In this document: positions 27,838 to 54,308 of the stretch, in pieces
How positions within the stretch are numbered: the first letter of the stretch is position 1
Layout: each line of letters opens with the position of its first letter
Source of the DNA: Streptomyces sp. BA2
GTDB taxonomy: Bacteria > Actinomycetota > Actinomycetes > Streptomycetales > Streptomycetaceae
Direction: 5' to 3'
DNA: 64,000 nucleotides
Assembly: GCF_009769735.1 (NCBI RefSeq)
Contig: NZ_WSRO01000002.1
Span: 8,109,001 to 8,173,000, forward strand
The notes under the pieces: model-generated
The model's database searches: none
What the model was told of the DNA's origin: nothing
What the model saw: only the letters and a program-made list of their open reading frames with translations
Position numbers and translations under genes: made by a program

Positions 27838-28881
27838 CTACCGAACGTTGTGAACGTTCTCCTGGTTGGCGCCGGGTACATCGACGAGCTGCAGGGCCGC
27901 CGCTTTCACGCCAGCCTCGAATCGGCTCTCGGCGTCGAGCTTCTCCATGATCGACGTGGTCATACGGCGCAGTGTGCGCGGCGAGATGCCGAGGGCCCGG
28001 GCGATCGAGTCGTCCTTGCTGCCGTTGGCAAGCAGCTTGATCACTGCCGTCTCGCGCTCGTCCAGTTCCACTTCGCCGGGGGTGTCCACGGCGCCCTTGG
28101 GGGCCGCCGTGGCGTCGGGCGGCACCGTGCCGTGCACCCAGCAGTGCTCGAAGGTGCCGCGCAGCAGCTGGCAGATGTCGGGGCCGCGGGCCTCCAGTGC
28201 GGTCATCTGTCCGTCACGGGGTGAAGCGGACATGTAGGCAAGGGCGTTGTCCACGAGGATCATCCGGAACGGCAGCACGGAGGCGAGTCGAACCTCGCAG
28301 CCGGCGTCCTTCAGGGCGGCCAGATGGGCACGGCCGTGGGGCAGGCTCGCCATCGAGTTGAGGTGGATGGCCCGCATGGTGACGCCCCTCTTCAGAGCGG
28401 TCTGATTGCGTTCCATGCTCTCCTGGAGCATGCGCTGCGGCAGGGGCGAGCCCGGGTGCATGCTCAGGATCTCGTTCTGCGCCTTGATGGCCGCGCCGTG
28501 CAGCGCGGCGGCGATGCTGTCCTCGCCGATCAGCAGATTGAGCTGGGCGTCGCTCTCCGTCCTCGACTGCAGGGCGAGGAGATTGGAGCCCAGGATCGCC
28601 ATGGTCTCCGACAGCTCTTCGTTGAGCGTGAGCCGCTCGCGTATCGCCTGCTGCTCGAGGGCGAGCAGCTGCGCCAGGGCCGTCTCCGGGTGGACGGCGA
28701 CGAAGGTGTCGCCGGCGGTGGTGGGCCGGATGAGACCCAGCTCGAGCAGAAGCGCCTCGGCTGCTTCGAAGGTCTGGTCGCTCAGCTTGAGGCGGGTCCG
28801 GGCCGCCGAGGTGCTCCTCCCTGATTCGGCCAACATATGGCGGAAGAGTTTGTGGGCGTCGACTGCGGTTTCCTGGTGCAT
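27838..28881 (-). CDS. LuxR-type HTH regulator with TrmB-like N-terminal half; probable cluster regulator
   Basis: A 347-residue regulator. The C-terminal about 65 residues (LDERETAVIKLLANGSKDDSIARALGISPRTLRRMTTSIMEKLDAESRFEAGVKA) form a LuxR/FixJ-type helix-turn-helix. The N-terminal region (FRHMLAESGRSTSAARTRLKLSDQTFEAAEALLLELGLIRP) looks like a TrmB/helical winged helix, and the middle (LALEQQAIRERLTLNEELSETMAIL...) is a helical linker with a phospholipase-D-like sensory fold, typical of this Streptomyces regulator class. It is divergent from the biosynthetic block across a 408-base gap and is the first intact gene after the decayed tRNA region. A pathway-specific activator role is inferred from position. 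Confidence 0.85.
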   Translation of the reverse strand: MHQETAVDAHKLFRHMLAESGRSTSAARTRLKLSDQTFEAAEALLLELGLIRPTTAGDTFVAVHPETALAQLLALEQQAIRERLTLNEELSETMAILGSNLLALQSRTESDAQLNLLIGEDSIAAALHGAAIKAQNEILSMHPGSPLPQRMLQESMERNQTALKRGVTMRAIHLNSMASLPHGRAHLAALKDAGCEVRLASVLPFRMILVDNALAYMSASPRDGQMTALEARGPDICQLLRGTFEHCWVHGTVPPDATAAPKGAVDTPGEVELDERETAVIKLLANGSKDDSIARALGISPRTLRRMTTSIMEKLDAESRFEAGVKAAALQLVDVPGANQENVHNVR

Positions 28882-29289: not shown

Positions 29290-30816
29290 ATGGCATGGAC
29301 CACGTTGCCGGAACGCGTCGGCACACAGGCAGAGCAGCGCCCGGACGCCCCGGCCCTGCTCTGGCACGGGCAGGAGATCGGCTACGCCGAGCTGAGCGGC
29401 CTGGCCGGCACGGCTCGCCGAGGCCTCGAAGCGCTGGGGCTACCGGGCGAGGGCCCGGTAGCCCTGGTGGCCAAGAAATCTCCACAGGCCGTCGCGGTCC
29501 TGCTCGCCTGTCTTGCCCTGCGTCAGCCCGTGCTCATCCCTTCCGCCGAGCTGGGTGAGGAGACGCTGGGCGAACTTCTCGCCCGGGCTGGGGCTCCATG
29601 CCTGCCCAGTCCCTTGGCCCTCACGGACCAGGCGGCACACCCCGGGCTTGTGCTCGGCGAGCCCGCCGGGACCGAGGGCTCCGGGTGTCCGGCCCTGCCC
29701 GAGGACACCACTTTCCTGCTGACCACCTCTGGCTCGACCGGACTGCCCAAGGCCGTGCCCGTGTCCGCCGCCGCCCTCGACCGCTTCACCGCCTGGGCCG
29801 GGCAGCGGTTCGGGATCGGACCGGGATCCACCGTGCTCAACTACGCCCCGCTCAACTTCGACCTGTGTCTCCTCGACATCTGGACGACCCTGGCGAGCGG
29901 CGGCTGCGCGGCCCTCGTGGACCAGGACCTGGCGGTCAACCCGGCCCATCTGCTGCAGCAGTTCCAGGCCCGCCCGGTCCAGGTGGTGCAGGGCGTACCG
30001 ATGCTCTTCCAGCTGCTCGGACAGGCCGAACGGCTCTCCCGCGGCGATGAGTTCGCGCAGGTCGAGCACGTCCTGCTGACCGGCGACGCAATCTCCGCGA
30101 AGGGGCTCGGAGCCCTGCCGGGGCTCTTTCCGAAGGCCAGGCTGCACAACGTCTACGGCTGTACGGAGACCAACGACAGCTTCGTCCACGAGATCGACCC
30201 GGCCGTGGATCCGGGGCGCTACGGTTCGGTGCCGATCGGCAGCCCCGTCACCGGCGCCGACGCGCTCGTCCTCGATGAGGAGGGCGCCGTCCTCACCGGT
30301 GCGGGCCGGGGTGAACTCATGGTCCGTACGCCCTTCCAGAGCGCCGGATACCTCGACCCCGCCCTGGACGACGGCGTGTTCGTCCCGCACCCTGGCGGCG
30401 GCTCCGCCGAGCCGGGCGCGACCGGGCGCTGGTACCGCACCGGTGACCTGGTCCGGCGCCACCCGGACGGGACGCTGACGCTCGAGGGCCGGCGCGACTT
30501 CGTGGTCAAGGTCCGCGGAGTACGCATCAACACCGCCGAGGTGGAAGAGGCGCTGCGCCGGCATCCGGAGGTGGCGGACGCGGCGGTGCTCGCCCTCCCC
30601 GACGAGCGGGCGGGCAAACGGCTGCACGCGGTCGTGCAGCGCACCGGGCATTCGGCGCTCAACGGGCTTCAACTCCGCGAGCACGCCGCCAAGTTGCTGC
30701 CCAGAGTCGCCATTCCCTCGAAGGTCGACCTTGTGGACACCGCGCTGCCCCGCACTCCCACCGGAAAGCTCGACCGCAAGGCCGTGCTGGGACGGCTGCA
30801 CGGGCAGAGCGCCTGA
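29290..30816 (+). CDS. Free-standing amino-acid adenylating enzyme (carrier-protein loading ligase, PltF/RedM-like)
   Basis: A 508-residue ANL-superfamily ligase with A3 core LTTSGSTGLPKAVP, A5 NVYGCTETND, A7 YRTGDLVRR, A8 region VVKVRGVRINTAEVEEALRRH, and catalytic Lys in PTGKLDRKA. Placed by eye on GrsA, its pocket reads D235, L236, L239, Q278, L299, T301, V322, D330, S331. The D-L-L opening recalls prolyl ligases of pyrrole pathways (recalled as DLLYLALVC), but the polar Q278, T301, D330 and S331 argue for a more polar amino acid; I infer glutamine. It probably loads the carrier protein encoded 120 bases downstream. The first gene of an 11-gene block; no ribosome binding site stands at the ideal distance, but a GGGGGG run lies 12 bases upstream. 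Confidence 0.85.
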   Translation: MAWTTLPERVGTQAEQRPDAPALLWHGQEIGYAELSGLAGTARRGLEALGLPGEGPVALVAKKSPQAVAVLLACLALRQPVLIPSAELGEETLGELLARAGAPCLPSPLALTDQAAHPGLVLGEPAGTEGSGCPALPEDTTFLLTTSGSTGLPKAVPVSAAALDRFTAWAGQRFGIGPGSTVLNYAPLNFDLCLLDIWTTLASGGCAALVDQDLAVNPAHLLQQFQARPVQVVQGVPMLFQLLGQAERLSRGDEFAQVEHVLLTGDAISAKGLGALPGLFPKARLHNVYGCTETNDSFVHEIDPAVDPGRYGSVPIGSPVTGADALVLDEEGAVLTGAGRGELMVRTPFQSAGYLDPALDDGVFVPHPGGGSAEPGATGRWYRTGDLVRRHPDGTLTLEGRRDFVVKVRGVRINTAEVEEALRRHPEVADAAVLALPDERAGKRLHAVVQRTGHSALNGLQLREHAAKLLPRVAIPSKVDLVDTALPRTPTGKLDRKAVLGRLHGQSA

Positions 30817-30935
30817 CTCCCGTACGAATCCACCCCGCTGCGGCACCCCGTCCGGCTGCCCTGCGGGCTCGCCCGGCTCGCCCGTGCGAGCCGTCCGATT
30901 CCCGTATGAACCCGTCACCCTTTCAGGAGGCCGAC

Positions 30936-31196
30936 ATGGCACGTATCGACGACATCAAGAAGTACCTGGTCGAGGAGTTCCTGCTCGACATCCCCGCCGA
31001 CGAGCTGGCCGACGACTACGACCTGCTGGCCAACGGCGTGATCGACAGCCTCGGCCTGCTCACCCTGGTCAGCTGGCTCGAGGACCGGTACCGCCTTGAC
31101 ATCGACGCCATGGAGATCGCCCCGGACAACTTCCGTTCGGTCGGCGACATCGAGACGTTCGTGGCCTCGGGCGACGTGCCGGCCGGAGCCAAGTAG
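30936..31196 (+). CDS. Stand-alone acyl/peptidyl carrier protein
   Basis: An 86-residue carrier protein. NGVIDSLGLLTLVSWLEDRY contains the DSL motif, with Ser38 as the phosphopantetheine attachment site. The four-helix acidic composition and length are typical. AGGAGG lies five bases before the ATG. It sits between the ligase and TrpD-like genes with a 2-base gap to the latter. In pyrrole-forming pathways an equivalent protein holds the aminoacyl thioester while a flavin dehydrogenase oxidises it; the same trio (ligase, carrier, dehydrogenase) is present here. Confidence 0.95.
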   Translation: MARIDDIKKYLVEEFLLDIPADELADDYDLLANGVIDSLGLLTLVSWLEDRYRLDIDAMEIAPDNFRSVGDIETFVASGDVPAGAK

Positions 31197-31198
31197 CC

Positions 31199-32275
31199 GT
31201 GACCGAACTGCTCCACAGCCTCGTGGCCCGCACCCGGCCGGTGACCGTCCAGGAATGGGACGGCTTCTGGGACCGGCTGCGGCACAAGGAACTGCACCCC
31301 GGAGAGGCCCTCGCCACGGTCAGTGCGCTGTCCACCCGGATGCCGCAGGCGCAGACCGCGGTGGCGCTCGTGGCCTCGCTGGACGCACGGCGCGAGCAGC
31401 CGGCGTCCTGGCCGGGCACGGTCAACGTGGTCGGCACCGGGGGTGGCCCTGCCACTTTCAACCTGACCACCGCTTCGGTCCTGGTCGCGGCCGCCACCGG
31501 CGTCAAGGTCGTGAAGACCGGGTCGCGCGGCTACACCAGCCGATTCGGCTCCATCGACCTCCTCGAACGCCTCGGCATCCCCACCGCCTCCTCGTACGCC
31601 GAGTGCGAGGACATGCTCGACGCCCATGGCATCGCCTTCGCGGACGGGTTCGTCTACCCGGCGGAGCTGAGCCGTCTGGCGCGGGCGATCCTCCCGTACG
31701 GCATGAAGCAGGTCGGCCGGATCTTCAACGTCCTCGGCCCCTTCCTGGCGGCCGTTCCGGTCGGCGCCCAGCTGACGGGGGTCTCCGACGCGGCGCTCGT
31801 TCCGGCCCTGGCGGAGGTGGCGGACTCGCTGTCGGGGCGCGAGGTCTGGCTGCTCCACAACAACCACGGGGTGGACGAGCTGATCGGGTTCGCGAGGAAC
31901 ACGATCCGTACCGGGGCAGGCAGCCCGGACCTGACGATCGAGCCCGGAACTCTGGACGGGGTGTGCCTCCACCCGGGCACGCTCGCCGAACTGGGTCCGA
32001 ATTACGACGACGCGGGGTCGCCGGTCCCGCAGCTGCTCGCGCTGCTCGGCGGGGACGGGCCCGACGCCGCCGTGCAGAGCATCTGCCTGAACGCGGCCGC
32101 GGCGGCGGTCGCTTCGGGCACCCGCACCGATTGGGCGGAAGCCTTCCGAGTCGCTCAGAACGCGATGCACTCGGGCGCCGCGCTCGAGTTGGTCGAGCGG
32201 CTGCGCGCATTTCGCCGGGCGCGGTCGCACCCGGCGGGCAACCAGGGGGAGCCGGTGATGGCACGTGTCGGCTGA
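31199..32275 (+). CDS. TrpD-like phosphoribosyltransferase with altered acceptor site
   Basis: A 358-residue homologue of anthranilate phosphoribosyltransferase, a class-IV PRTase. The fold markers are present: VVGTGGGPATFNLTTASV, KTGSRGYTSRFGSIDLLERLG, IFNVLGPF and the Mg-binding HGVDELIGF (Asp226-Glu227). The PRPP loop GTGGD reads GTGGG. The residues that hold anthranilate in characterised enzymes are changed: KHGN is KTGS (His107 to Thr, Asn109 to Ser), and the Arg164 position in the MKxVxxxRxxLGxR region aligns with Gly168. PRPP chemistry is therefore probably kept with a different amine acceptor, which I infer to be an aminopyrrole carboxylate. It overlaps the TrpA-like gene by 11 bases. 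Confidence 0.88.
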   Translation: MTELLHSLVARTRPVTVQEWDGFWDRLRHKELHPGEALATVSALSTRMPQAQTAVALVASLDARREQPASWPGTVNVVGTGGGPATFNLTTASVLVAAATGVKVVKTGSRGYTSRFGSIDLLERLGIPTASSYAECEDMLDAHGIAFADGFVYPAELSRLARAILPYGMKQVGRIFNVLGPFLAAVPVGAQLTGVSDAALVPALAEVADSLSGREVWLLHNNHGVDELIGFARNTIRTGAGSPDLTIEPGTLDGVCLHPGTLAELGPNYDDAGSPVPQLLALLGGDGPDAAVQSICLNAAAAAVASGTRTDWAEAFRVAQNAMHSGAALELVERLRAFRRARSHPAGNQGEPVMARVG

Positions 32276-33101
32276 ACCGACCCACGTAGCAGGCGCGTCG
32301 GAGCGGCGGTTCTTCGCGGGGCGCGGACCGTCGGACCCGGGGCTCGCGCTCTTCGTGAACGCCGGCGACCCGGGCCTGGACCGGCTGCGCGACCTCGTCC
32401 TGCTCCTGGACGAGGCGGGCGTGGACTGCCTGGAGCTCGCGGTGCCCTTCCCGGACTCGGTCACCGACGGCCCGGTCATCCGGCGCTCCGCCCGCCGGGC
32501 CCTGGACAGGGGGACGGACCTGGACGCCGTCCTGGGGTTCATCGCGGCGGTGCGGCCCCGGCTGCGGCACACCAAGGTGGCGCTGCTCGCGGACTGGCGG
32601 CACTCCGTACGGCCCGTGGGGATCAAGGAGTTCGTGGCCAAGTCCCGTGACTGCGGCGCTGACGGCGTCCTCTTGCACGGACTGCCGCCACGGGCGGCCC
32701 CGGGCTATCTGGAGGCCGCCGAGCGGATCGGCCAGCCCGTCGTCACCAGCTGTTACGCCGGGTCGGAACCCGACGTACTGGCGCAGGCGGCCCGGCATGC
32801 CACCGCCTATCTCTATCTCGTCGCCCACTACGGGCGTTCCGGGACCGCCCCGCCGCCCCGGGCGGACGCGCTGAGGCCGGTCCTCGCCACCCTGCGGGGC
32901 AGCACGGCCGCGCCGATCGCCGTGGGCTTCGGGGTACGGACCGGTGCGGACGTCCGGACGATGGGCGCACTCGGTGCCGACGCGGCGATTGTCGGCACAG
33001 CCCTGGTGGACCGCGTCGAGCAGGCGCAGAACGCCGGCGGCGACCTGCTCGCCGAGGTCGGCCGGTTCGTCGAAGGGCTGCGCCCGGAACCGGCGCACTG
33101 A
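32265..33101 (+). CDS. TrpA-like lyase (tryptophan synthase alpha homologue)
   Basis: A 278-residue TIM-barrel protein. LELAVPFPDSVTDGPVI matches the TrpA active-site segment: Glu57 and Asp68 correspond to the catalytic Glu49 and Asp60 of the Salmonella enzyme. Later phosphate-binding strands (VGFGVRTGADVRTMGALGADAAIVGTALVD) are also kept. TrpA cleaves indole-3-glycerol phosphate to indole and glyceraldehyde-3-phosphate; here it should release the free heterocycle made by the TrpC-like enzyme. The normal TrpA loop carrying LxGLPxE is recognisable as GVLLHGLPPRAA. The start is inside the end of the TrpD-like gene, indicating coupling. Confidence 0.88.
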   Translation: MSAEPTHVAGASERRFFAGRGPSDPGLALFVNAGDPGLDRLRDLVLLLDEAGVDCLELAVPFPDSVTDGPVIRRSARRALDRGTDLDAVLGFIAAVRPRLRHTKVALLADWRHSVRPVGIKEFVAKSRDCGADGVLLHGLPPRAAPGYLEAAERIGQPVVTSCYAGSEPDVLAQAARHATAYLYLVAHYGRSGTAPPPRADALRPVLATLRGSTAAPIAVGFGVRTGADVRTMGALGADAAIVGTALVDRVEQAQNAGGDLLAEVGRFVEGLRPEPAH

Positions 33102-33144
33102 CAGTCAACTACTTATTCACAGCAGAGTCGTTGGGGGGAAATCC

Positions 33145-33519
33145 GTGATCATTCGCAAGCTGGAAGACGTGAAGACCGTGGACTGGGGGAACGGCGTCAG
33201 CCGCAGATTCCTCCTCGAGGCCGACAACATGGGGTACACGGTCACCGACACCGTCGTGGCCGCCGGCTCCAAGTCCCTGCTCGAGTACCGCCGCCATCTC
33301 GAAGCCTGCTACTGCATCTCGGGCCGTGGCGAGGTCGTCGACATGGCGGGGGAGAGCCACCTCATCGAGCCGGGCACGCTCTACGCCCTCGACGAGCACG
33401 ACGCGCACTGGCTGATCGCCTGGCCGGAGGAGGACCTGCGCCTCGTCTGCGTTTTCACCCCGGCCCTCAACGGTGACGAGGTCCATTCGCTGGACGGCGC
33501 GGCCTCGTCCCACTACTGA
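33145..33519 (+). CDS. Ectoine-synthase-like cupin (EctC homologue)
   Basis: A 124-residue cupin aligning end to end with ectoine synthase: MIIRKLED at the N-terminus, LEACYCISGRGEV, PGTLYALDEHDAHWL, and LVCVFTPALNGDEVH at the C-terminus. The three metal ligands of EctC (Glu57, Tyr85, His93 in the Paenibacillus enzyme) correspond to Glu53, Tyr80 and His88. There is no ectA, ectB or ectD nearby, so it is not for ectoine osmoprotection. EctC closes a cyclic amidine by losing water, and the true enzyme is reported to cyclise glutamine to 5-amino-3,4-dihydropyrrole-2-carboxylate as a side reaction. I infer this reaction, perhaps on the carrier-bound thioester. The GTG start has a GGGGGGAA tract upstream. 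Confidence 0.9.
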   Translation: MIIRKLEDVKTVDWGNGVSRRFLLEADNMGYTVTDTVVAAGSKSLLEYRRHLEACYCISGRGEVVDMAGESHLIEPGTLYALDEHDAHWLIAWPEEDLRLVCVFTPALNGDEVHSLDGAASSHY

Positions 33520-33570
33520 CGCACCCCACCACCGTGCCGCGCACCGCCACCACCTTCCAGGAGTTCCACC

Positions 33571-34710
33571 GTGATCGAATGGTCAAGCGACCAGCGTGAC
33601 CTGCGCGACGGCCTCACCCCGTGGTTCGAGAAGTTCGGCGACGACCACTTCCGTTACGACAAGCAGGCCGAGTTCCCCCGCGTGCCGTGGGACGCCGTGG
33701 CCCAATCCGGGCTGCTCCGGCTGCCGTTCGGCGAGGAGTGGGGCGGGCTCGGACAGTCGCTGCTCACCACCATGTACGTCCTCGAAGGACTCGGCCACGG
33801 CTGTCGCAATGGCGGACTCAACTTCTCCGTCACCACCCACATGGTCAGCACCGGCGTGTCGCTGCAGCGGTTCGGCTCGGCCGAGCTCAAGCGGCGTCAT
33901 CTGCCGGGCGTCTGCGAAGGAACGACCATCGGCGCGCATGCGATCAGCGAACCGGGCAGCGGCTCGGACGCGATGAACATGCGCACCACCGCCATCGCCG
34001 ACGGCGATCACTTCGTGCTCAACGGCAGCAAGACCTTCGTCAGCAACGGCCCGGTGGCCGACCTGATCGTCGTCTACGCCAAGACGGACCCGACGGCGGG
34101 CCCGCTCGGGGTGACCGCGTTCCTGGTGGAGCGGGACACCCCTGGGCTCACCGTCGGCAACCCCATCGAGAAGATGGGCCTGAAGGCCTCGCCGCTGTGC
34201 GAGCTGTACTTCGACGACTGCCGGGTGCCCAAGGCGAATGTGATCGGCCGGGTCGGCACCGGCTTCCTGGTGCTCGATCACGTGATGAAGTGGGAGATCC
34301 TCTGCTCCTTCATCGTCGGCACGGGCGAGATGCAGCGCCGCCTGGAGAGCTGTATCGCGTACGCCGGTGAGCGCACGGCGTTCGGGCAGCCGATCGGTGG
34401 CTTCCAGTCGGTGGCCAACCGGATCGTCGACATGAAGATCGGCCTCGAGACCTCCCGCAAGTGGCTGTACGACACCGCACAGAAGGTCACCACCGGGCAG
34501 AAGGTCACGGTCGACCTGGCCACGGCGAAGCTGATCACCAGCCGGGCCGCGCTCGAATCCGCGCTGAGCGCCGTCCAGATCTTCGGCGGCAACGGCTACA
34601 TGGCCGAGTACGGCCTGGAGCAGGAGCTGCGCGGAGCCGTCGCCGGAACCATCTACTCCGGCACCACCGAGGTCCAGTACAGCCGTATCGCCTCGATGCT
34701 CGGCCTGTGA
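33571..34710 (+). CDS. Acyl-CoA-dehydrogenase-fold oxidase for a carrier-bound amino acid
   Basis: A 379-residue flavoprotein of the acyl-CoA dehydrogenase family. The flavin segment is AISEPGSGSDAM (residues 124-135), followed by VLNGSKTFVSNGPVADLIVV and QIFGGNGYMAEYGLEQELRGAVAGTIYSGTTEVQ. The segment HVMKWEILCSF places Glu242 where prolyl-carrier dehydrogenases such as PltE/RedW have their catalytic base (EWE-type), rather than at the C-terminal position of fatty-acid enzymes. With the ligase and carrier genes it should dehydrogenate a ring carbon next to the thioester, aromatising a pyrroline. One two-electron oxidation of the cyclic amidine would give an aminopyrrole. Confidence 0.88.
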   Translation: MIEWSSDQRDLRDGLTPWFEKFGDDHFRYDKQAEFPRVPWDAVAQSGLLRLPFGEEWGGLGQSLLTTMYVLEGLGHGCRNGGLNFSVTTHMVSTGVSLQRFGSAELKRRHLPGVCEGTTIGAHAISEPGSGSDAMNMRTTAIADGDHFVLNGSKTFVSNGPVADLIVVYAKTDPTAGPLGVTAFLVERDTPGLTVGNPIEKMGLKASPLCELYFDDCRVPKANVIGRVGTGFLVLDHVMKWEILCSFIVGTGEMQRRLESCIAYAGERTAFGQPIGGFQSVANRIVDMKIGLETSRKWLYDTAQKVTTGQKVTVDLATAKLITSRAALESALSAVQIFGGNGYMAEYGLEQELRGAVAGTIYSGTTEVQYSRIASMLGL

Positions 34711-34769
34711 GCCGGAGGAGCGGGAGAAGCGAGACAAGCGGGAGAACAGCTGTGACAGGGAGAACGACC

Positions 34770-35444
34770 ATGCAACCCACACTCGCCGCCACCGACTTCC
34801 TCGACCACGGCTCCGCCGAGGTGACCGGGTTCGTCGACGAGGTGCTGCCCGATGGCGGGGCCGACGACCGGGACCGGGCGGTGCGCCTGTACTACGCGGT
34901 CCGCGACAAGATCGGCTACGAGATCTACGGCGCCGACTTCTCCCGCGAGGGGCTGACCGCGTCGCAGGTCGTCAAGGCAGGCAAGGGACTGTGCATCCAC
35001 AAGTCCGTCCTGTACGCCTCCGCACTGCGCTCGGTCGGCATTCCGGCCCGGCTCGTGCTCACCGACGTACGCAACCATCTGTCGTCGCCGAAGATCCGGG
35101 AGTTCATCGGCGGTGACGTTTTCCACTACCACGCGCTCACCTCCGTACGGCTCGACGGCCGTTGGATGCGGGCCACCCCGGTGTTCAACCGGCTGCTCTG
35201 CCGCCTCTACGGCATGCGGCCGCTCGACTTCGACGGCACCGCCGACAGCGTCTACCACCCCTATGACGGCCAGGGGAAGGCGCACATGGAGTTTCTCAGA
35301 GAGCACGGCGAGTTCGACGATCTGCCCTACCAGCAGATCCTCGACGGCATGCGCAGCGCGCATCCGAAGATCTTCGCCGGCCCTGACCGGACCCGGTTCG
35401 CCGACGGGTCGCTGGTGGCCGATGCCGCCACCGAGCTCGCCTGA
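34770..35444 (+). CDS. Transglutaminase-like cysteine hydrolase/acyltransferase
   Basis: A 224-residue transglutaminase-core protein. KAGKGLCIHKSVLYASALRSVGIPARLVL contains the catalytic Cys75. FHYHALTSVRLDGRWMRATPVFN supplies the His (His119 or His121) and the acidic/Asn third member. This fold hydrolyses or transfers acyl groups from thioesters through a cysteine intermediate; relatives in antibiotic clusters move amino acids between carrier proteins. Here it may release the aminopyrrole carboxylate from the carrier so that the Trp-type enzymes can act on the free acid. The GTG at 34752 is an alternative start in frame. The residues after His121 are typical of bacterial members. Confidence 0.85.
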   Translation: MQPTLAATDFLDHGSAEVTGFVDEVLPDGGADDRDRAVRLYYAVRDKIGYEIYGADFSREGLTASQVVKAGKGLCIHKSVLYASALRSVGIPARLVLTDVRNHLSSPKIREFIGGDVFHYHALTSVRLDGRWMRATPVFNRLLCRLYGMRPLDFDGTADSVYHPYDGQGKAHMEFLREHGEFDDLPYQQILDGMRSAHPKIFAGPDRTRFADGSLVADAATELA

Positions 35445-35503
35445 CACCTCATCAATTTCCTTTGTTCATCAGCCTTTTCACCGCAATCGCGAGGACTACC
35501 GAC

Positions 35504-36868
35504 GTGGACACCATCAAGTACCAGCTCCGTGACGACCAGATACCCACCAGCTGGTACAACATCGCCGCCGATCTCGCGCGGGTCGACCCGCCGCTGCACC
35601 CGGGCACCGGGCAGCCCGCCACCGTCGACGACCTGACCGGCATCATGCCCAAGGAGCTCGCCGAGCAGGAGCTGACCCTGGAGCGGGACATCGAGATCCC
35701 CGCCACCGTGCGGCAGATCTATGCGCAGTGGCGTCCCTCGCCGCTGTTCCGTGCCCGCCGCCTCGAGCGGGCGCTCGGCACCCCGGCGCGCATCTACTAC
35801 AAGTACGAGGGCGGCAGCCCGGCCGGCAGCCACAAGCCGAACACGGGTATCGCGCAGGGCTTCTACAACAAGGAAGCGGGCATCCGCCGTCTGGCCACCG
35901 AGACCGGCGCCGGCCAGTGGGGCTCGTCCCTCGCCCTGGCCGGCGCGTTCTTCGGCCTCGAGGTCAAGGTCTTCATGGTGAAGGTGAGTTATCACCAGAA
36001 GCCCTACCGCAGGGCCCTGATGCACACCTACGGCGCCACCTGTGTGCCCAGCCCCTCCACCGAGACCGCGGCGGGCCGCGCCATCCTCGCCGAGGACCCG
36101 GACTGCCCCGGCGCGCTCGGCATCGCGACCTCGGAGGCGATCGAGGTCGCCATGAACGACCCGTTCACCAACTACGCCGGTGGCAGCGTGCTCAACCACG
36201 TCGCGCTGCACCAGACGGTCATCGGGCAGGAAGCCCTCCTGCAGATGGACATGGCCGACGACTACCCGGACATCGTGATCGGCTGCGCCGGCGGCGGCAG
36301 CAACCTGGCCGGTCTCACCTTCCCGTTCCTCGGCGAGCAGCTGCGCGGCGGCAAGCAGGTCCGGGTGATCGCCTCCGAGCCCGAAGCCTGCCCGACCCTG
36401 ACCAAGGGCCAGGTCGCCTACGACTTCGGTGACACCGCGCAGCTCACCCCGCTGCTCAAGATGCACACCCTCGGCCACTCCTTCGTCCCGCCGTCCATCC
36501 ACGCCGGTGGCCTGCGCTACCACGGCATCGCCCCGCTGGTCAGCCAGGCGCTGCAGGACGGTCTGATGGAGGCGCGGGCGGTCCCGCAGACCGCCTGCTT
36601 CGAGGCCGGCCTCACCTTCGCCCGCAGCGAGGGCATCGTGCCCGCCCCCGAGTCGACGCATGCCATCCGCGCCGCCATCGACGAGGCCCTGCGCTGCCGC
36701 GAGGAGGGCAGGTCCGAGGCGATCCTGTTCGGCCTGTCCGGCCACGGCCACTTCGACCTGGGCTCATACGAGAAGTACATGGCCGATGAGCTGGCGGACG
36801 AGGGCTACGACGAGGAGCTGGTGGCCCGCTCACTGGCCCGCATCCCCGCTCCCTTCGGCCAGGTCTGA
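35504..36868 (+). CDS. TrpB2-type tryptophan synthase beta homologue
   Basis: A 454-residue PLP enzyme of the TrpB2 subgroup, recognised by its N-terminal extension, RPSPLFRARRLERALG and the lysine motif YEGGSPAGSHKPNTG (Lys111). ETGAGQWGSSLALAGAFFGLEVKVFM and GCAGGGSNLAGLTFPFLG are the substrate and phosphate loops, and PAPESTHAI the C-terminal loop. TrpB2 enzymes act with little dependence on TrpA and accept free indole with serine or phosphoserine. I infer condensation of the new heterocycle with serine to give a tryptophan-like amino acid. The GTG at 35504 has GAGG about 10 bases upstream. A canonical SHK(I/L)N reads SHKPN here, a change next to the catalytic lysine. Confidence 0.92.
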   Translation: MDTIKYQLRDDQIPTSWYNIAADLARVDPPLHPGTGQPATVDDLTGIMPKELAEQELTLERDIEIPATVRQIYAQWRPSPLFRARRLERALGTPARIYYKYEGGSPAGSHKPNTGIAQGFYNKEAGIRRLATETGAGQWGSSLALAGAFFGLEVKVFMVKVSYHQKPYRRALMHTYGATCVPSPSTETAAGRAILAEDPDCPGALGIATSEAIEVAMNDPFTNYAGGSVLNHVALHQTVIGQEALLQMDMADDYPDIVIGCAGGGSNLAGLTFPFLGEQLRGGKQVRVIASEPEACPTLTKGQVAYDFGDTAQLTPLLKMHTLGHSFVPPSIHAGGLRYHGIAPLVSQALQDGLMEARAVPQTACFEAGLTFARSEGIVPAPESTHAIRAAIDEALRCREEGRSEAILFGLSGHGHFDLGSYEKYMADELADEGYDEELVARSLARIPAPFGQV

Positions 36869-36873
36869 TCCCC

Positions 36874-37581
36874 GTGTGGCTGAAGGTGTGCGGACTCACC
36901 CGCACCAGCGAGATCAGACTGCTGAGCAGCTCCCCGGTGACCACGGTCGGCCTCTGGTACGGAGTGCCGGACGGCAAGGCCGACCTGACGCGGGACGAGC
37001 TGACGACGCTGGCGGGGCTCGCCCTGGAGCGCGGTCTTGAGCCCGTCCTGGTCACGCTCCTCGACGACCCGGAGCAACTGCGCGATGCCGTACGGGCTTC
37101 GGGGGTGCGCCGCGTCCAGCTGCACGGCTACACCACGCCGCGGCAGGTGGCCGCGGTCCGGGCGGCCCTGCCGGACGTCGTGCTGCTCAAGGTGCTGCAT
37201 GTGCGCCGCGGCAAAGTGCTTGAGAAGCCCTTCGTCACGGCCTTCGAGCGTGCGGGCACCGACCTGTTCCTGTTCGACTCGGTGGGCGACGACGGGCGGA
37301 TCGGCAGCACCGGCAAGCCACTTGACCCCGCGGCCCTGGCGCCTGTGCTCGACACGGTACGGATCCCGTTCCTGCTCGCCGGCGGGCTGACCGCCGGCGC
37401 GGCCAAGGAGCACGGCGCGGCCCTGCGGCACGACGGATTCCTCGGCATCGATGTGGACAGCGGGGCGCGCAGGCCCGACGGCACGCTTGCCCCGCTGATC
37501 GTCGATGGGATCCGGCACGCCTGGAGCGAGGAACTGCGCCGCCGTAGAGAGGAGTTGCGCCATGCCGTCGCCGTCAGCTGA
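36874..37581 (+). CDS. TrpF-like phosphoribosyl-amine isomerase
   Basis: A 235-residue TIM-barrel homologue of phosphoribosylanthranilate isomerase. The N-terminal KVCGLTR holds the catalytic cysteine (Cys6), and LFLFDS holds the catalytic aspartate (Asp135). LLAGGLTAGA and GIDVDSGARRPDG are the two phosphate-binding motifs. It should carry out the Amadori rearrangement of an N-phosphoribosyl amine. Streptomyces normally uses the bifunctional PriA for tryptophan and histidine synthesis and has no separate trpF, so a dedicated TrpF inside a gene cluster is notable. It lies 5 bases after TrpB and overlaps TrpC by 20 bases. Confidence 0.92.
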   Translation: MWLKVCGLTRTSEIRLLSSSPVTTVGLWYGVPDGKADLTRDELTTLAGLALERGLEPVLVTLLDDPEQLRDAVRASGVRRVQLHGYTTPRQVAAVRAALPDVVLLKVLHVRRGKVLEKPFVTAFERAGTDLFLFDSVGDDGRIGSTGKPLDPAALAPVLDTVRIPFLLAGGLTAGAAKEHGAALRHDGFLGIDVDSGARRPDGTLAPLIVDGIRHAWSEELRRRREELRHAVAVS

Positions 37582-38344
37582 TTCCGCACCCGCCGAGCTC
37601 ACCGGCGGCGGACGCTTCGGTGCCGCGCTGCGCACCGCCGACATCCCCGTGATCATGGAGCTCAAGCGCAACAGCGCGCACGGCGCCGACCTGTTCGCAG
37701 GCCGTCCGGTCGGCGAGCTGGTGGCGCGGTACACGGAGCTCGGCGCGCCCGCGCTCTCCGTGGTCACCGGGTCCTGGTTCGGCGGCACACCCGAGCTGCT
37801 CGAAGAGGTGGCCGAGGCCACCGAACTGCCTCTCCTGGTCAAGGACTTCTTCACCAAGGAGAAGCAGATCGCGGCCGTGGCCGCCGCAGGGGCGTCCGCG
37901 GTTCTGCTCACCGCGACCGTGCTGCCGCGCACGGTGCTGCGCCGGCTGATCGGGATCTGTCTGGAGTACGACGTGACCCCGTTCGTCGAGATCACCTCCG
38001 AGGCCGAACTCGCCACGGTGGAACAGGCGCAGGACTGTGTCATCGCCGTCAACAACAAGGACATCCGGCAGCGCGAACGCGACACCGGAGACCTGGGGCG
38101 CAGCCATCGGCTGATCGACCGGGTCCGCGCCACGGGCACCGCCGTGCCGGTCAGCGCCAGCGCCATCGAGACCCCGGGCGACGCGGCCGGACTGCTGTCC
38201 GCGGGCTATCGGGGGCTGCTGATCGGTACGGGTCTGCTGCGGGCCGCCGACCTCGACGCCTGGTTCGGCGAGCTCAGGGCCCTGTGGCCCCCGGGCGCGC
38301 ACGACGCCACCGGGGCCGACTCCCGTAAGGAGCGCACTCCATGA
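37562..38344 (+). CDS. TrpC-like ring-closing synthase (IGPS homologue) with altered substrate loop
   Basis: A 260-residue TIM-barrel homologue of indole-3-glycerol-phosphate synthase. Catalytic positions are largely kept: Glu33 and Lys35 in IMELKRNSAHG, Lys94 in LLVKDFF, Glu143 in PFVEITSEAEL, Asn164/165 in VNNKD, and Ser200. Two features differ from true TrpC: the substrate-carboxylate loop SPSKG reads NSAHG, and the ESG motif reads ASA, replacing the Glu210 equivalent by Ala199. IGPS closes the pyrrole ring with loss of the anthranilate carboxylate. The changes fit a substrate whose carboxylate is elsewhere and must be removed later by the UbiD-like enzyme. It overlaps that gene by 4 bases. 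Confidence 0.9.
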   Translation: MPSPSADSAPAELTGGGRFGAALRTADIPVIMELKRNSAHGADLFAGRPVGELVARYTELGAPALSVVTGSWFGGTPELLEEVAEATELPLLVKDFFTKEKQIAAVAAAGASAVLLTATVLPRTVLRRLIGICLEYDVTPFVEITSEAELATVEQAQDCVIAVNNKDIRQRERDTGDLGRSHRLIDRVRATGTAVPVSASAIETPGDAAGLLSAGYRGLLIGTGLLRAADLDAWFGELRALWPPGAHDATGADSRKERTP

Positions 38345-39828
38345 CCGGCAACCCCGGCCTTTCGGTGCGCGCCGCACTGGCCCAGCTGCGGGCCCAGGAG
38401 CCCGAGGCACTGCACGAGTACACCGAGCCGATGCCCGTGGCGGAGGTGGCGGCCCACTTCGCCGCCGCCCACGCCGGCGTACCGGCCGTCGGGATCTCCC
38501 GCAGCGAGCCCGCGGTGCTCTACCGCGGCGTCAAGGGATTCCAACTCCCCGTCCTGCTCGGTCTGTACGGTGACGCGGCACGGCTGCGGCGCTGGCTGCC
38601 GGGTCTGCCGGACCGGGCCGCCCCGGACACGGTGGTCCCGCTGCTCGCGGCGGCGGCCCGGACGGCGCCGCGCGAGGTGCCCGACGCGCCCTGCCGTGCG
38701 GTGGCCGCCGTCGGCGACGAGGTCGATCTGCGCCGGCTGCCCGTACTGACCAGCACACCTCGGGACGCGGGCCCGTATCTGACCACCGCGCTGATCCGGG
38801 CCGAGGACCCGGTCACCGGGGAGACCGCGCTCTCCTGCCACCGCATGCTGGTGCTCGACCGGTCCCGGCTCACCGTGTGGATGGTGCCGGGCCGCAAACT
38901 AGGCGAGCTGCACCGGCGGGCCCTGGAGCGGGGCGATCGCCTCCCGGTCAGCGTCAGCATCGGGGTGCCGCCCGCCGTCATGGTGGCCTCCGCGGTCAAC
39001 ACGGCCTTCCTGGGGCCGGGTGACGCTCCGTCGGCGGACGGGCCCCCGGTCGAGCTCTCGGTCGACAAGCTGGCCCTCGCCGGGGCGCTGGCCGGCGAGG
39101 CGATCGAGCTCTCGCCGGGCCTGACCCAGCCCGTGCCCGCGCTCGCCCAGGCCGAGATCGTCATCGAGGGACACCTCGACGACCAGGTGGCGGACGAGGC
39201 TCTCGACGGCGCCGAACCGGGGCTTTCGCTGCCGGAGTTCCTCGGCTACGACGGCCGGGCCCGGTCCGGCCTGCCGGTGCTCACCGTGACCGCGGTCACC
39301 ACCCGCCACGACCCCCTCTACCAGGCGGTCGTCGGCCCCGGCCGGGAGCAGTCGTACCTCCTCGGCACCGCCGGGGCGCTGTCCGTCGCACTCTCCCTGC
39401 CGCACCACCCTGACCTGGCCGTCCACGACCTGCACTTCGCCGCGGCCGGCGGCGGCATGCTGCTGCTCACCGTCGCGGTGCGCAAGGCGTCCGCCGCGGG
39501 GGACACCGCCCTGCCCGGCCTCGCCCGCGAGATTCTGCGCCGGCACCCCTTCGTCAAGACGGTCGTCCTCACCGACGAGGACATCGCCGTCTCTTGTACG
39601 GAGGACGTGCTGTGGGCGATGACCACCCGCTCGAATCTGGCGGCCGACTGTACGGAGTGGACGGATCTGGGGCCCGTACCGATGGACCCCTCCCAGACCG
39701 AGGCCTGGGCCGAGCACCGGGCGGCGGGCCGGATCCCCGGCCGGGTGGCCCTCGACGCGACCACCCCCTTCGCCCTGCGCGAGACGACCGGACGCAGCTT
39801 CGCCGTGCCCGCGCCCCGGCCCGGCTGA
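38341..39828 (+). CDS. UbiD-family (prFMN-dependent) decarboxylase
   Basis: A 495-residue member of the UbiD decarboxylase family. The fold is recognisable from VLYRGVKGFQLPVLLGLYGD, VDLRRLPVLTSTPRDAGPYLTTALI (metal and cofactor region with ALSCHRMLVLD), ALAQAEIVIEGHLDD (acidic residues Glu272 and Glu276) and LPEFLGYDGRARSGLPVLTVTAVTTRHDPLY. UbiD enzymes need prenylated FMN made by UbiX, for which no gene is present in the window. Family members reversibly decarboxylate pyrrole-2-carboxylate and furan or indole carboxylates. Removal of a ring carboxylate from the new heterocycle is therefore a good fit. It is the last gene of the block; an intergenic gap of 318 bases follows. Confidence 0.88.
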   Translation: MTGNPGLSVRAALAQLRAQEPEALHEYTEPMPVAEVAAHFAAAHAGVPAVGISRSEPAVLYRGVKGFQLPVLLGLYGDAARLRRWLPGLPDRAAPDTVVPLLAAAARTAPREVPDAPCRAVAAVGDEVDLRRLPVLTSTPRDAGPYLTTALIRAEDPVTGETALSCHRMLVLDRSRLTVWMVPGRKLGELHRRALERGDRLPVSVSIGVPPAVMVASAVNTAFLGPGDAPSADGPPVELSVDKLALAGALAGEAIELSPGLTQPVPALAQAEIVIEGHLDDQVADEALDGAEPGLSLPEFLGYDGRARSGLPVLTVTAVTTRHDPLYQAVVGPGREQSYLLGTAGALSVALSLPHHPDLAVHDLHFAAAGGGMLLLTVAVRKASAAGDTALPGLAREILRRHPFVKTVVLTDEDIAVSCTEDVLWAMTTRSNLAADCTEWTDLGPVPMDPSQTEAWAEHRAAGRIPGRVALDATTPFALRETTGRSFAVPAPRPG

Positions 39829-40146: not shown

Positions 40147-43100
40147 ATGTCGAAGAGCCTCAACGAGGACGAGTACCGCGCCATCGTCGAGTGGAACGGC
40201 GGAGCGGCAGGCGCCGCCCGCCCGGAGCCGGCCGACGCCACGCTGCCCGCGCTCTTCGCGGAGACCGTCCGCGCCCACCCGGACCGCACCGCCGTCAGCT
40301 GCGGCACCGACGCGCTGACCTACGCCGAAGTGGCCGCCCGGGCGAACCGCCTGGCCCGCCTCCTTGCCGAGCGCGGCATCGGGCCCGGCCAGCTGGTGGC
40401 CCTGGCCCTGCCCCGCTCCCTCGACCTGGTCGTCGGCCTGCTCGCGGTCACCGCCTCGGGCGCCGCGTATCTGCCGATGGACCCGGACTACCCGGCCGAC
40501 CGCGTGGCCCACATGCTTCAGGACGCCGCCCCCGCCGCGCTGCTCACCGACACGGCGACGGCTCCCGGACTGCCCGCCAACGCACTGCCCGCGATCCTGG
40601 TGGACGGCTCGGACCACGCCGCGTACAGCCCGGAGGAACTCACCGACGCGGATCGCGCCCGGCCGCTGCACGCCGAGGACATGGCGTACGTCATCTACAC
40701 CTCGGGCTCCACCGGCCGCCCCAAGGGCGTCCCCGTCACCCACCACAACGCGACCCGGCTGTTCTCGGCGACCGAGCACTGGTTCGGCTTCGACGAGCGG
40801 GATGTGTGGACCCTCTTCCACTCCTACGCCTTCGACTTCTCGGTGTGGGAGCTCTGGGGCGCCCTGCTGCACGGCGGGCGGCTCGTGGTGGTGCCGTATC
40901 TGACCGGCCGCGACCCCGCGGACTTCCGCGCCCTGCTGGCCCGCGAGCAGGTCACCGTCCTCAACCAGACGCCGTCCGCGTTCTACCAGCTGGCCGCCGC
41001 CGACCACGAGCATCCGGCCGGTGAACTGGCCCTGCGCTACGTCGTGTTCGGCGGTGAGGCCCTCGAACCCGCCCGGCTCGCCGACTGGTACGAGCGGCAC
41101 GCGGACGACACGCCCACCCTGGTCAACATGTACGGCATCACCGAGACCACGGTGCATGTCTCGTATGTCGCCCTCGACCGTGCGGCGGCCGCCGCGAGCA
41201 CGTCGAGCGGCATCGGCGTGAACATCCCCGACCTGCGCGTCTACGTTCTCGACGAGGAGTTGCGGCCGGTACCGCCGGGTGTCACGGGTGAGATGTACGT
41301 CGCCGGGGCAGGTGTCGCCCGCGGCTATCTGGGCCGGCCCGCGCTGACTGCCGAGCGGTTCGTCGCGGACCCGTTCGCCGCGTACTTCGGTGAGAGCGGC
41401 AGCCGGATGTACCGGTCGGGCGACCTGGCCCGGCGCACCGCCGACGGACAATTGGAGTACTTCGGGCGCGCCGACCAGCAGGTCAAGATCCGCGGCTTCC
41501 GTATCGAGCCGGGCGAGATCGAAGCGGTGCTCGCCGGGCACCCGGACGTGGCCGATGCCGCCGTCGTCGTACGCGAGGACATCCCGGGCAGCAAGCGCCT
41601 CGTCGGCTATGCGGTACCGGCCCGCGATGGCGTGACCGGCGCCGCGCTGCGCGAACACGCCGCGGCAGGGCTGCCCGCCTACATGGTGCCGTCCGCCGTG
41701 GTCCTGCTCGACCGGCTGCCGCTCACCGCCAACGGCAAGCTCGACCGCGGGGCCCTGCCGGAGCCGGGTGCGAGCCGCCCGGCCGGCTCCGGGCGCGCGC
41801 CGCGTACGCCGCGTACGCCCCAGGAAGAGCTGCTCTGCGGGCTGTTCGCCGAGACGCTGCGACTGCCCCAAGTCGGCGTCGACGACGACTTCTTCGCACT
41901 GGGCGGCGACTCCCTGCTGGCCGTCCGACTGCTGCGTGCCGTGCGCAAGGAGCACGGCAGTGCGCCCACGGTGGCCGCGCTGTTCGGCGCACCGACGGTG
42001 CGCGGTCTTGCCCCGCTCGTCGGTGGCACCGGTGGCGGGGCCGGTGGTGTCGGTGGTGTCGGTGGTGTCGGGCACGAGGTGCCGCCGCTGGTCCGGGCCA
42101 CCGGGCACGAAGGGCCGCTGCCGCTGTCGGCTCAGCAGCGCAGTCAGTGGTTCCTCAATCGCTTCGACGGCTCCGCTGCCGAGCGGGATGGCGCGCTCTA
42201 CAGCATTCCGCTCGCCCTCCATCTCGACGGCACGCTCGACACGGCGGCACTGCGGGCCGCGCTGGGCGATGTGGTGGAGCGGCACGAGGTGCTGCGCACG
42301 GTCTTCCGCGAGGGGGCCGACGCGCCGCACCAGGTGGTGCTGCCGTTCGGCGAGGCTGCCCCCGCGCTGCTCGACGGCGGCCGGGTCGGCAGGGCCGCCT
42401 TGCCCGCGGCCCTGCGGGCCGCCGCCACCCGGGGCTTCGACCTGAGCGCTGAAATCCCGCTCCGCGCCCAGCTGTTCCACGTCGGTCCGCAGGCACATGT
42501 GCTGCTGCTCGTGGTGCATCACGCCGCGTGCGACGGCCGGTCCCTCGAGCCGCTCGGCCGGGACCTCTCGCAGGCGTATGCGGCGCGGTGCGCAGGCGTG
42601 GCGCCCACATGGGTGCCGTTGCCGGTGCAGTACGCGGACTTCGCGCTGTGGCAGCGTGCGGTGCTCGGCGATGAAGGTGCTGAGGGCGATGAAGGCGATG
42701 GAAGCAGCCTCGGTGCCCGTCAGCTGGTGTTCTGGCGGGAGGCTCTGGCCGACCTGCCGGAGCAGCTGGACCTGCCGGTGGACCGGGCCCGCCCGGTCCG
42801 GCCCACGTTCCGCAGTGGCTCGGTCCCGCTGAATCTGCCGACCGCCTTGCATGAGCAGATCCGGGGAGCGGCCCGGGAGCACGGGGTCACCTCATTCATG
42901 GTGCTGCAGTCGGCGCTGGCCGTGGCGCTGACCCGGTTCGGCGCGGGCACCGACATCCCGATCGGCACCCCGGTCGCGGGCCGCGCCGACGAAGCCCTCG
43001 ACGACCTCGTCGGACTCTTTGTGAACACCCTTGTGCTGCGGACGGATACGTCGGGGGATCCGACGTTCGCGGAGTTGCTGGGGCGGGTGCGGGAGACGGA

Positions 43101-49100: not shown

Positions 49101-49311
49101 GGCCCAACACCGGCTGTACGAAGGCGATCTGCTCTTCTTCACCGCCACGGCCGACAAGACACCGGCCGACCCGACAGCCCAGTCCTGGCGGGCCCATGTC
49201 ACCGGCCGGATCGACGACCACCCGGTGGCCTGTGCGCACGGGGCCATGACCCAGCCGGACCCCCTCGCTGAGATCGCGGGGCCGCTCGGCAGGGCGCTGA
49301 ACCGCCCCTGA
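40147..49311 (+). CDS. Three-module NRPS: A(Thr)-T-C-A-T-C-A-T-TE
   Basis: A 3,054-residue synthetase: A1 about 25-525; T1 with Ser589; C1 with HHAACDG (His791-His792); A2 about 1120-1630; T2 with Ser1676; C2 with HHIAGDG (His1861-His1862); A3 about 2180-2700; T3 with Ser2740; and a C-terminal thioesterase with GWSFGG (Ser2870). The A1 pocket reads DFWNVGMVH, one step from the threonine code DFWNIGMVH. A2 and A3 both read D-V-A-D-V-G-V-V-V (Asp1338/1381 and Asp2402/2445), close to tryptophan (DVALVGAVS) but with Asp for Leu at position 278. I infer two copies of a tryptophan isostere after threonine. There is no epimerase or methylase domain. The ATG at 40147 has GAAGGAG nine bases upstream. 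Confidence 0.95.
43387..44800 (+). repeat. Duplicated NRPS segment, copy 1 (end of C1 through A2)
   Basis: Long blocks of this segment (for example 43390-43830, 44020-44460 and 44560-44800) are almost base-for-base identical to 46570-47980. They are separated by more diverged patches around 43840-43990 (A2-A3 linker). The identical blocks use many TTG, GGT, GTG and CGG codons with lower GC at third positions than the rest of the gene. This suggests recent duplication or gene conversion between modules 2 and 3. Confidence 0.85.
46570..47980 (+). repeat. Duplicated NRPS segment, copy 2 (end of C2 through A3)
   Basis: Partner of the segment at 43387-44800. The substrate-pocket part is identical at all nine specificity residues, so the duplicated modules select the same amino acid. 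The patch at about 47030-47190 differs from copy 1 and has the gene's ordinary GC-rich codon use, marking the limits of homogenisation. The T domains at 45070-45290 and 48260-48480 are also near-identical. Confidence 0.85.
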
Positions 49312-49377
49312 CGGCCGGATCCGGCCGTGACGACCACTTCATCGATCACCCCCACGAACGAACCGAGGGAAGCAGCA

Positions 49378-54224: not shown

Positions 54225-54225
54225 G

Positions 54226-54245
54226 CCCTGCCCTGCCCTGCCCTG
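54226..54245 (+). repeat. Four tandem CCCTG pentamers
   Basis: Four CCCTG units directly follow the stop codon of the A-T gene. It is a simple slippage repeat in a 121-base junction between two NRPS genes. Confidence 0.7.
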
Positions 54246-54308
54246 CGCCCCGGGCCCTCCGCACGATGCGTGCCCGGCCCAACCCGCTTACGTAGCCCAC
54301 TGCTTGAC

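Follow-up and report, generated by a model that had tools for sequence, protein, structure and literature searches.

We analyzed a 64,000-nucleotide stretch of the Streptomyces sp. BA2 genome (the window; bases 8109001–8173000 of contig NZ_WSRO01000002.1, in a genome of 10.04 Mb) that contains a block of eleven genes at 29290–39828, among them tryptophan-pathway homologues, directly followed by a nonribosomal peptide synthetase (NRPS). A sequence-only reading of this DNA had described the block as eleven co-directional genes of named families with no anthranilate synthase, and coordinates together with Pfam and NCBIfam matches bear this out. All eleven genes lie on the + strand in the order first described. 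They encode a discrete adenylating ligase (29290–30816; Pfam AMP-binding), a stand-alone carrier protein (30906–31196; PP-binding), a TrpD-like phosphoribosyltransferase (31199–32275; PF00591, Glycos_transf_3, with TIGR01245 below its cut-off), a TrpA-like lyase (32265–33101; PF00290, Trp_syntA, with TIGR00262 above its cut-off), an EctC-like cupin (33145–33519; PF06339, Ectoine_synth, nearest PDB entries 5ONN/5ONO), an acyl-CoA-dehydrogenase-like flavoenzyme (33571–34710), a transglutaminase-fold protein (34770–35444; Transglut_core), a TrpB2-like pyridoxal phosphate (PLP) enzyme whose true start is unsure (35462–36868; NF009057 and TIGR01415, trpB_rel, both above cut-off), a TrpF-like isomerase (36874–37581; a weak PRAI match above cut-off), a TrpC-like ring-closing enzyme whose start codon is unsure (37505–38344; IGPS) and a UbiD-like decarboxylase of the prenylated flavin mononucleotide type (38341–39828; UbiD). 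A search with the chorismate-binding family PF00425 returned six matches genome-wide and none in the window, the nearest ending ~349 kb before it, and by this measure the window lacks an anthranilate synthase. A second TrpD and a second TrpC are encoded elsewhere in the genome, and the TrpF-like gene is its sole PRAI-family match.

The cluster extends beyond the block on both sides. Upstream, a LuxR-type regulator on the - strand (27838–28881; Pfam GerE) probably marks its start. Downstream, all on the + strand, lie the NRPS (40147–49311), which by Pfam contains three adenylation (A), two condensation (C) and three thiolation (T) domains and a thioesterase (TE), an MbtH-like protein (49327–49599) and an MFS transporter (49596–51146) that is a likely exporter and the probable cluster end. 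Homologues of these four genes flank the cassette in the three nearest clusters with TrpB2, those of K. aureofaciens, S. coffeae and Streptomyces sp. NEAU-Y11; there the regulator is 38–40% and the transporter 63–70% identical, and the MbtH homologue stands beside the relatives' NRPS. The sequence-only reading held that every gene had a place in its scheme, a claim that left the adjoining NRPS out.

Relatives were gathered in one scan of contigs from one genome per species with an alignment of 18 TrpD-like proteins, and the best 80 of 85 loci were compared, each spanning 10 kb either side of TrpD ('without TrpB2' below means none within 10 kb). Eight genes form a core cassette: ligase, carrier, TrpD, TrpA, EctC, dehydrogenase, TrpF and TrpC. 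The gene order is beyond chance because matches to all eight recur in 66 of the 80 loci, and in 57 of the 67 whose 3' side extends beyond 8.6 kb; the 14 loci with an incomplete core include both short contigs and real differences. Fisher values for gene co-occurrence ignore kinship and overstate the evidence, which comes from few independent events. A TrpD-like match at E 1e-60 or better is found in 20 of 392 Streptomyces genomes, the window's own included, and also in proteobacteria. Neither TrpB2 nor UbiD was found in the wider stretches of 20 further places covering 17 of the other 19 Streptomyces genomes; of the two genomes outside that set, one is the L090 genome, which has UbiD, and the other is represented by a short contig.

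Several features of this distribution are of separate interest. In G129, G199 and G272, equal-scoring TrpD matches are mirrored near both chromosome ends, and the cassette seemingly lies in terminal inverted repeats. On the tree, the TrpD of Rhodococcus rhodnii NRRL B-16535 is nearly identical to that of Kibdelosporangium aridum (L039, L041), pointing to a recent transfer or a mislabelled assembly. Proteobacterial cassettes occur in Azospirillum (L060), Roseomonas (L065), Rhodospira and an Acetobacteraceae metagenome-assembled genome (loci L060, L065, L070 and L046). The Azospirillum locus (flanks L140 and L141) also contains a ketosynthase-like gene, an ABC ATPase, an FtsX-type permease, a LolA-like protein and a flavin amine oxidase.

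One relative connects the cassette to a known natural product. Micromonospora okii TP-A0468 (L107), the producer of the antibiotic kosinostatin, carries the complete eight-gene core in the window's order, at 42–66% identity. Its tandem ketosynthases (G401:C12:76112–78096) lie on the same contig as TrpD (63845–64870), ~11 kb away, with a nucleotidyltransferase and a sugar-nucleotide dehydratase-like gene in between. The building of the kosinostatin ring, which we take to be the [2,3-b] isomer, reportedly goes back to a 2013 paper that gave it a nicotinate origin. Two type II sets are present in this strain, and ORFs 8-66 to 8-68 are assigned to kosinostatin, according to an excerpt of PMC8698034; by contig place and sugar genes, we infer that the kosinostatin set is the C12 pair and not the other tandem pair (C19). 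Excerpts of PMC7918784 state that kosinostatin has a pyrrolopyrrole ring, that the kstB genes load nicotinic acid and make the pyrrole and that the kstC genes join it with phosphoribosyl pyrophosphate (PRPP); a table there lists 'ectoine' in the kosinostatin-like region of the related strain 28ISP2-46. Place and content, rather than accession numbers, suggest that the eight L107 genes are the kstB/kstC genes. The pyrrolopyrrole ring proposed by the sequence-only reading thus gains support from the occurrence of the same eight-gene cassette near type II ketosynthase genes in this producer. No transglutaminase, UbiD or TrpB2 match was found in L107 within 10 kb of TrpD or in the further flanks. 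The loci L008 and L010, which lack TrpA, were considered as a kosinostatin type and rejected, as L107 has TrpA.

The ligase is informative about which acid enters the cassette. Asp235, Gln278, Gly301, Asp330 and Lys517 are constant in all 74 cassette ligases (73 loci plus the window, after one stray domain, L080, was dropped), L107 included; the pocket code reads DLLQLGVDSK in the window and DLLQFGLDSK in L107. Position 278 was set by spacing and checked with the Thr, Gly and Ser codes, which fit neighbouring domains. Asp235 is the usual partner of the alpha-amino group in adenylation pockets. The ligases would accordingly take an alpha-amino acid, as the sequence-only reading had proposed, and the invariant Gln278/Asp330 pair is compatible with glutamine (Gln). 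The loaded precursor is probably Gln, a choice made because EctC chemistry depends on a suitably spaced side-chain amide and because the EctC of H. elongata is reported to make the cyclic amidine ADPC from Gln (excerpt of PMC6344544). The carrier retains its attachment Ser in 79 of 80 rows, the remaining row having a gap.

Two further enzymes would act next. With residue numbers after PMC6344544, the iron ligands Glu57, Tyr84 and His92 of the EctC-like cupin are kept in 75 of 75 rows, as are Trp21, Ser23, Arg25, Thr40, Tyr52 and Phe106; the kept ligands and the ADPC report support the earlier suggestion of glutamine cyclisation, here predicted as closure of a cyclic amidine. A change of Asn38 to Thr (with Trp51 to Glu) was considered as a mark of a carrier-bound substrate and rejected, as position 38 also differs in the genome's own ectoine synthase and both positions differ in that of S. 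alaskensis. A further EctC-like gene lies elsewhere in the genome (G000:C1:427243–427599; L193); it is 53% identical to the window protein and keeps the iron ligands, and its neighbours, read by eye, include a dihydroorotate-dehydrogenase-like frame. The flavoenzyme, predicted to aromatise the carrier-bound ring, is RedW/PigA-like by its best NCBIfam models, in line with the PltE/RedW type named before; its scores (368 bits for PigA, cut-off 500; 356 bits for RedW, cut-off 650) lie below the equivalog cut-offs.

The Trp-like enzymes combine conserved catalytic residues with altered pockets in TrpD and TrpC (TrpD residues in M. tuberculosis numbering). In TrpD, His136 is replaced by Thr or Ser and Asn138 by Ser or Ala in 81 of 81 rows, leaving none with the expected anthranilate residues. 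The Mg-binding Asp-Glu pair is kept in all 81, and the carboxylate-binding Arg region is rebuilt, with Arg at one candidate position in two rows; the genome's own TrpD retains the standard His and Asn. These residues support a cassette TrpD that is no longer fitted for anthranilate. TrpC keeps Glu51, Lys110 and Glu159 in 76 of 76 rows, Lys53 in 75 and Asn180 in 73. Position 210 is Ala in 75 of 76 rows and position 182 is Lys in 74, in place of the Glu and Arg of the genome's other TrpC; a pocket altered in this way would be compatible with ring closure at a CH carbon. The TrpF residues Cys7 and Asp126 (75/75) and the catalytic Glu49 and Asp60 of TrpA (74/74) are invariant.

The remaining genes of the block follow a different distribution. 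UbiD is present in nine of nine loci with TrpB2 within 10 kb versus eight of the 71 others (L042, L053, L059, L060, L061, L065, L070 and L090), consistent with the two enzymes working together as the sequence-only reading supposed. The transglutaminase-fold gene is found in 12 of 17 loci with UbiD versus nine of 63 without; its Cys and His are kept in 22 of 22 rows, and the position read as the triad acid is not acidic. TrpB2 keeps the PLP Lys and the catalytic Glu in ten of ten rows. UbiD keeps Arg in 18 of 18 and the Glu of PEFLGY in 16 of 18, and a UbiX gene is present elsewhere in the window genome. The sequence-only reading cited UbiD enzymes that act on pyrrole-2-carboxylates, a point that needs correction for this protein: by sequence the nearest solved structure is an AroY-type protocatechuate decarboxylase (5ny5, E 9e-54), and the pyrrole-2-carboxylate enzyme PA0254 scores far lower.

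Neighbouring assembly enzymes divide in a similar way. A ketosynthase occurs within 10 kb in 51 of 71 loci without TrpB2 and in none of the nine with it (L060 is counted among the 51, and L107 falls outside them with its ketosynthases just beyond 10 kb), and a long NRPS match occurs in five of nine TrpB2 loci versus one of 71 others. By Pfam, the ketosynthase-linked examples include KAS II, KAS III and a MaoC-like protein. These patterns point to two main routes: one in which the carboxyl would stay carrier-bound for elongation, and one in which it would be freed from the carrier and cleaved off, the other ring gaining an alanine side chain. The sequence-only reading had TrpD, TrpF and TrpC homologues build the second pyrrole after release from the carrier. 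Release before these steps is doubtful and the Trp-like steps are more likely to occur on the carrier, because transglutaminase-fold and UbiD matches are both missing from 54 of the 80 loci and because a ketosynthase accompanies the cassette in 51 of the 71 loci without near TrpB2.

The idea that TrpB2 and ketosynthase clusters separate cleanly was nonetheless rejected, as the separation is true only within 10 kb: L060 has both, with TrpB2 (72%) and a transglutaminase-fold gene ~13 kb from TrpD. TrpB2 in L065 stands at a position that fits an L060-like layout, and in L070 and L059 it lies on another contig. At E 1e-60, TrpB2 was found in four of 12 genomes searched whole, two or three of them proteobacterial clusters with UbiD, and had no whole-genome match in L042, L053, L061, L090, L107, L077, L046 and L043. 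The whole-genome results widen the TrpB2 branch and blur the ketosynthase split, opposite pulls that leave our assessment unchanged.

A group of core cassettes lies beside KAS II and KAS III genes (L056, L045 and the 47-row half of the TrpD tree), L045 with an added MaoC-like gene and L056 with an added aminotransferase. This KAS-linked cassette family may carry a pyrrolopyrrole starter.

The NRPS suggests where the product of the window's block goes. Its A1 code, DFWNFGMVH, is Thr-like, one letter off what we take to be the Thr code, and A2 and A3, which are 92% identical, share the code DVADVGVVV. This code occurs in nine A domains from six TrpB2 clusters: the window, K. aureofaciens, S. coffeae and Streptomyces sp. 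NEAU-Y11 (one each in the latter three) and two Lentzea (two each); on the tree S. coffeae is closely related to NEAU-Y11, and the two Lentzea to each other. Among 29 other loci, from a search of 392 Streptomyces genomes with the second A domain, none of 26 readable codes was DVADVGVVV; L155, L167 and L169 gave no code, and position 278 was not compared there. A protein-motif scan of the fetched loci, which can miss domains, likewise found it only in the six TrpB2 clusters. A2 and A3 likely take a tryptophan mimic (X), which would give a Thr-X-X peptide. Judged by known adenylation codes, the K. aureofaciens enzyme would presumably make Ser-Gly-X and the Lentzea enzymes longer chains ending in Gly-X-X.

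Farther downstream, the window contains a second assembly line at 52338–62975, made up of an A-T protein, an NRPS with two C domains and a ketosynthase protein with an NAD_binding_4 reductase domain. These genes were considered as part of the cluster and rejected, as the polyketide synthase protein has no match at 1e-10 in the flanks of nine TrpB2 loci. The two NRPS proteins match seven of 18 flank stretches of TrpB2 loci at 24–38% identity; in six of the seven the NRPS at 40147–49311 matches far better (46–55%), and the seventh (L117) is only a weak match. No type II ketosynthase pair was found among the window genes scanned, which did not cover every open reading frame of the window.

Observed genes, their conservation, residues and adenylation codes lead us to predict the following reactions and product. 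We consider it reasonably probable that the block is the eight-gene cassette plus transglutaminase-fold, UbiD and TrpB2 genes and makes 3-(pyrrolo[2,3-b]pyrrolyl)alanine, a tryptophan mimic of composition C9H11N3O2, which the adjoining NRPS would build twice into a Thr-X-X peptide. The ligase would put Gln on the carrier, and the EctC-like cupin would close Gln-carrier to a cyclic amidine with loss of water. The RedW/PigA-like dehydrogenase would then remove two hydrogens, yielding a 5-aminopyrrole-2-carboxyl thioester. TrpD would attach phosphoribose from PRPP to the exocyclic amine, TrpF would rearrange the adduct and TrpC would complete the second pyrrole at the unsubstituted ring carbon beside the amine, without the decarboxylation needed for anthranilate. 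TrpA would next release glyceraldehyde phosphate, these Trp-like steps probably being carrier-bound. The transglutaminase-fold protein would likely hydrolyse the thioester and so release the acid, UbiD would take off the ring carboxylate and TrpB2 would finally join Ser to the ring. For kosinostatin and most ketosynthase-linked cassettes, which lack at least one of these final three enzymes, the carboxyl would be elongated instead. A broader proposal, on which we are evenly divided, is that bacteria produce this dedicated tryptophan isostere from Gln, PRPP and Ser and have evolved a separate A pocket for it (DVADVGVVV, with Asp278 positioned for the extra ring NH), by which it enters peptides such as Thr-X-X, and that polyketides receive the ring from the same cassette with the carboxyl kept, among them kosinostatin, whose ring would come from Gln rather than nicotinate.

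Other precursors would have to be reconciled with the same enzymes. The ring could come from nicotinate and ribose if the ligase loaded nicotinate, which would be contracted to a pyrrole on the carrier before the Trp-like enzymes add the second pyrrole, and this origin is the one stated for kosinostatin in excerpts of PMC7918784, PMC5321127 and PMC8400222. The cassette, however, brings an EctC-type cyclase and a RedW-type dehydrogenase and contains no expected pyridine-contracting gene. We regard nicotinate as distinctly unlikely because Asp235, the usual alpha-amino partner, is constant in the cassette ligases; the Gln278/Asp330 pair is likewise invariant, and the kosinostatin producer's own enzyme shares all three residues. 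Proline is a still poorer candidate. It would be converted to pyrrole-2-carboxyl-carrier as in the prodiginines and pyoluteorin, with EctC and the Trp-like enzymes acting on the pyrrole in some other way, and it is favoured by PigA and RedW as the models nearest the dehydrogenase and by the prolyl-carrier ligase 6o6e among the nearest PDB matches of the window ligase. The dehydrogenase nevertheless scores below both cut-offs, DLLQLGVDSK differs at positions 278, 301, 322, 330 and 331 from DLLYLALVCK, which we take to be the prolyl code, a plain pyrrole offers TrpD no amine and the EctC iron ligands are kept throughout.

A different question is what becomes of the ring. A pyrrolopyrrole may be made without ending as an alanine, TrpB2 being otherwise employed or the carboxyl retained. 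The 71 of 80 loci without TrpB2 within 10 kb, the UbiD loci L042, L053, L061 and L090 without genomic TrpB2, and the pairing of TrpB2 with a ketosynthase in L060, where no NRPS was found, all fit such an outcome. We judge it improbable for the window, as TrpB2 retains its catalytic residues and is accompanied by UbiD wherever it occurs in these loci, and as the long NRPS match is concentrated in TrpB2 loci that share an unusual code. That the block serves to provide the NRPS with tryptophan or plain indole is scarcely credible: the presence of five Trp-pathway homologues in one block invites the idea, but the window has no anthranilate synthase, the anthranilate residues of TrpD are replaced in every row, the genome has another TrpD and TrpC and the ligase, carrier, EctC and dehydrogenase would sit idle.

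A Gln-derived pyrrolopyrrolyl-alanine built into a peptide must still be weighed against several observations that do not fit it well. Five of 11 TrpB2 clusters show no DVADVGVVV domain: L049 has TrpB2 and a 46% NRPS homologue yet other A-domain codes, and L092, L073, L097 and L060 have none in the scanned flanks. The EctC differences at positions 38 and 51 are non-diagnostic and the kosinostatin producer's TrpC has Thr for Asn180. Excerpts of PMC5321127, PMC8400222 and PMC7918784 give nicotinic acid and ribose, and not Gln, as the published origin of the kosinostatin ring. In L073 and L097 no ligase, TrpA, EctC or dehydrogenase stands beside TrpB2, although EctC-like genes (56–62%) lie elsewhere, and the UbiDs of both loci lack the segment bearing the catalytic Glu. 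The routes are not cleanly divided, since L060 combines ketosynthase, UbiD, TrpB2 and transglutaminase-fold genes. Nor is the transglutaminase-fold gene confined to the amino-acid branch: L077, whose species is named in an excerpt of PMC7918784 as having a nearly complete kosinostatin cluster, carries it. On the TrpD tree, with ungrouped rows omitted, TrpB2 in its initial scoring needs four changes, three of them forced by supported branches. The genomes of L034 and L092 lack a cassette-type EctC (best matches 38–40%), and EctC may be dispensable in some relatives. These two loci are TrpD/TrpA/dehydrogenase cassettes that may use another amidine route or give a different product.

If the proposal is correct, the window encodes every step towards a tryptophan substitute containing a third nitrogen, together with a matching adenylation pocket. 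Such a pair would serve peptide engineering and help genome mining to find peptides missed by standard predictors, and it would make the origin of the kosinostatin ring, nicotinate or Gln, testable again; the TrpD-like marker is widespread, reaching the proteobacteria as well as the Streptomyces genomes counted above. The novelty that the sequence-only reading left open divides along the same line: ring building is already known in kind from kosinostatin, and our searches of open-licence PubMed Central papers turned up no description of the amino-acid branch and its NRPS code, PMC8698034 included, nor, kosinostatin aside, any account of products of other cassette loci.

Comparison with characterized systems places the block among familiar chemistries. 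The tryptophan pathway runs TrpD-TrpF-TrpC-TrpA-TrpB with the same order of reaction types, and the catalytic residues of TrpF, TrpA, TrpB2 and mostly TrpC are kept here; the window differs in lacking anthranilate synthase, in its changed TrpD pocket, in Ala at TrpC position 210 and in the predicted closure on CH. Ectoine synthase has the same iron ligands as the window cupin, whereas the latter has no ectA or ectB beside it, is flanked by the TrpA-like gene and the dehydrogenase and is predicted to act on carrier-bound Gln; anthelvencin biosynthesis may be a further case of such glutamine cyclisation. Prolyl-carrier oxidation (RedM/RedO/RedW and PltF/PltL/PltE) likewise uses a ligase, a carrier and an acyl-CoA-dehydrogenase-like enzyme to make a carrier-bound pyrrole; the window has another pocket code, an intervening EctC-type cyclase and a product predicted to carry an amino group. 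Among solved structures, AroY-type enzymes are closest in sequence to the UbiD, whose predicted substrate is a pyrrolopyrrole carboxylate rather than protocatechuate.

The kosinostatin/quinocycline genes (kstB, kstC) share with the window a discrete adenylating enzyme and carrier, a TrpD/TrpF/TrpC-like block and a predicted bicyclic ring. Those genes lie near type II ketosynthase and sugar genes and have a published origin from nicotinate and ribose, whereas the window's cassette stands beside an NRPS and is proposed here to start from Gln.

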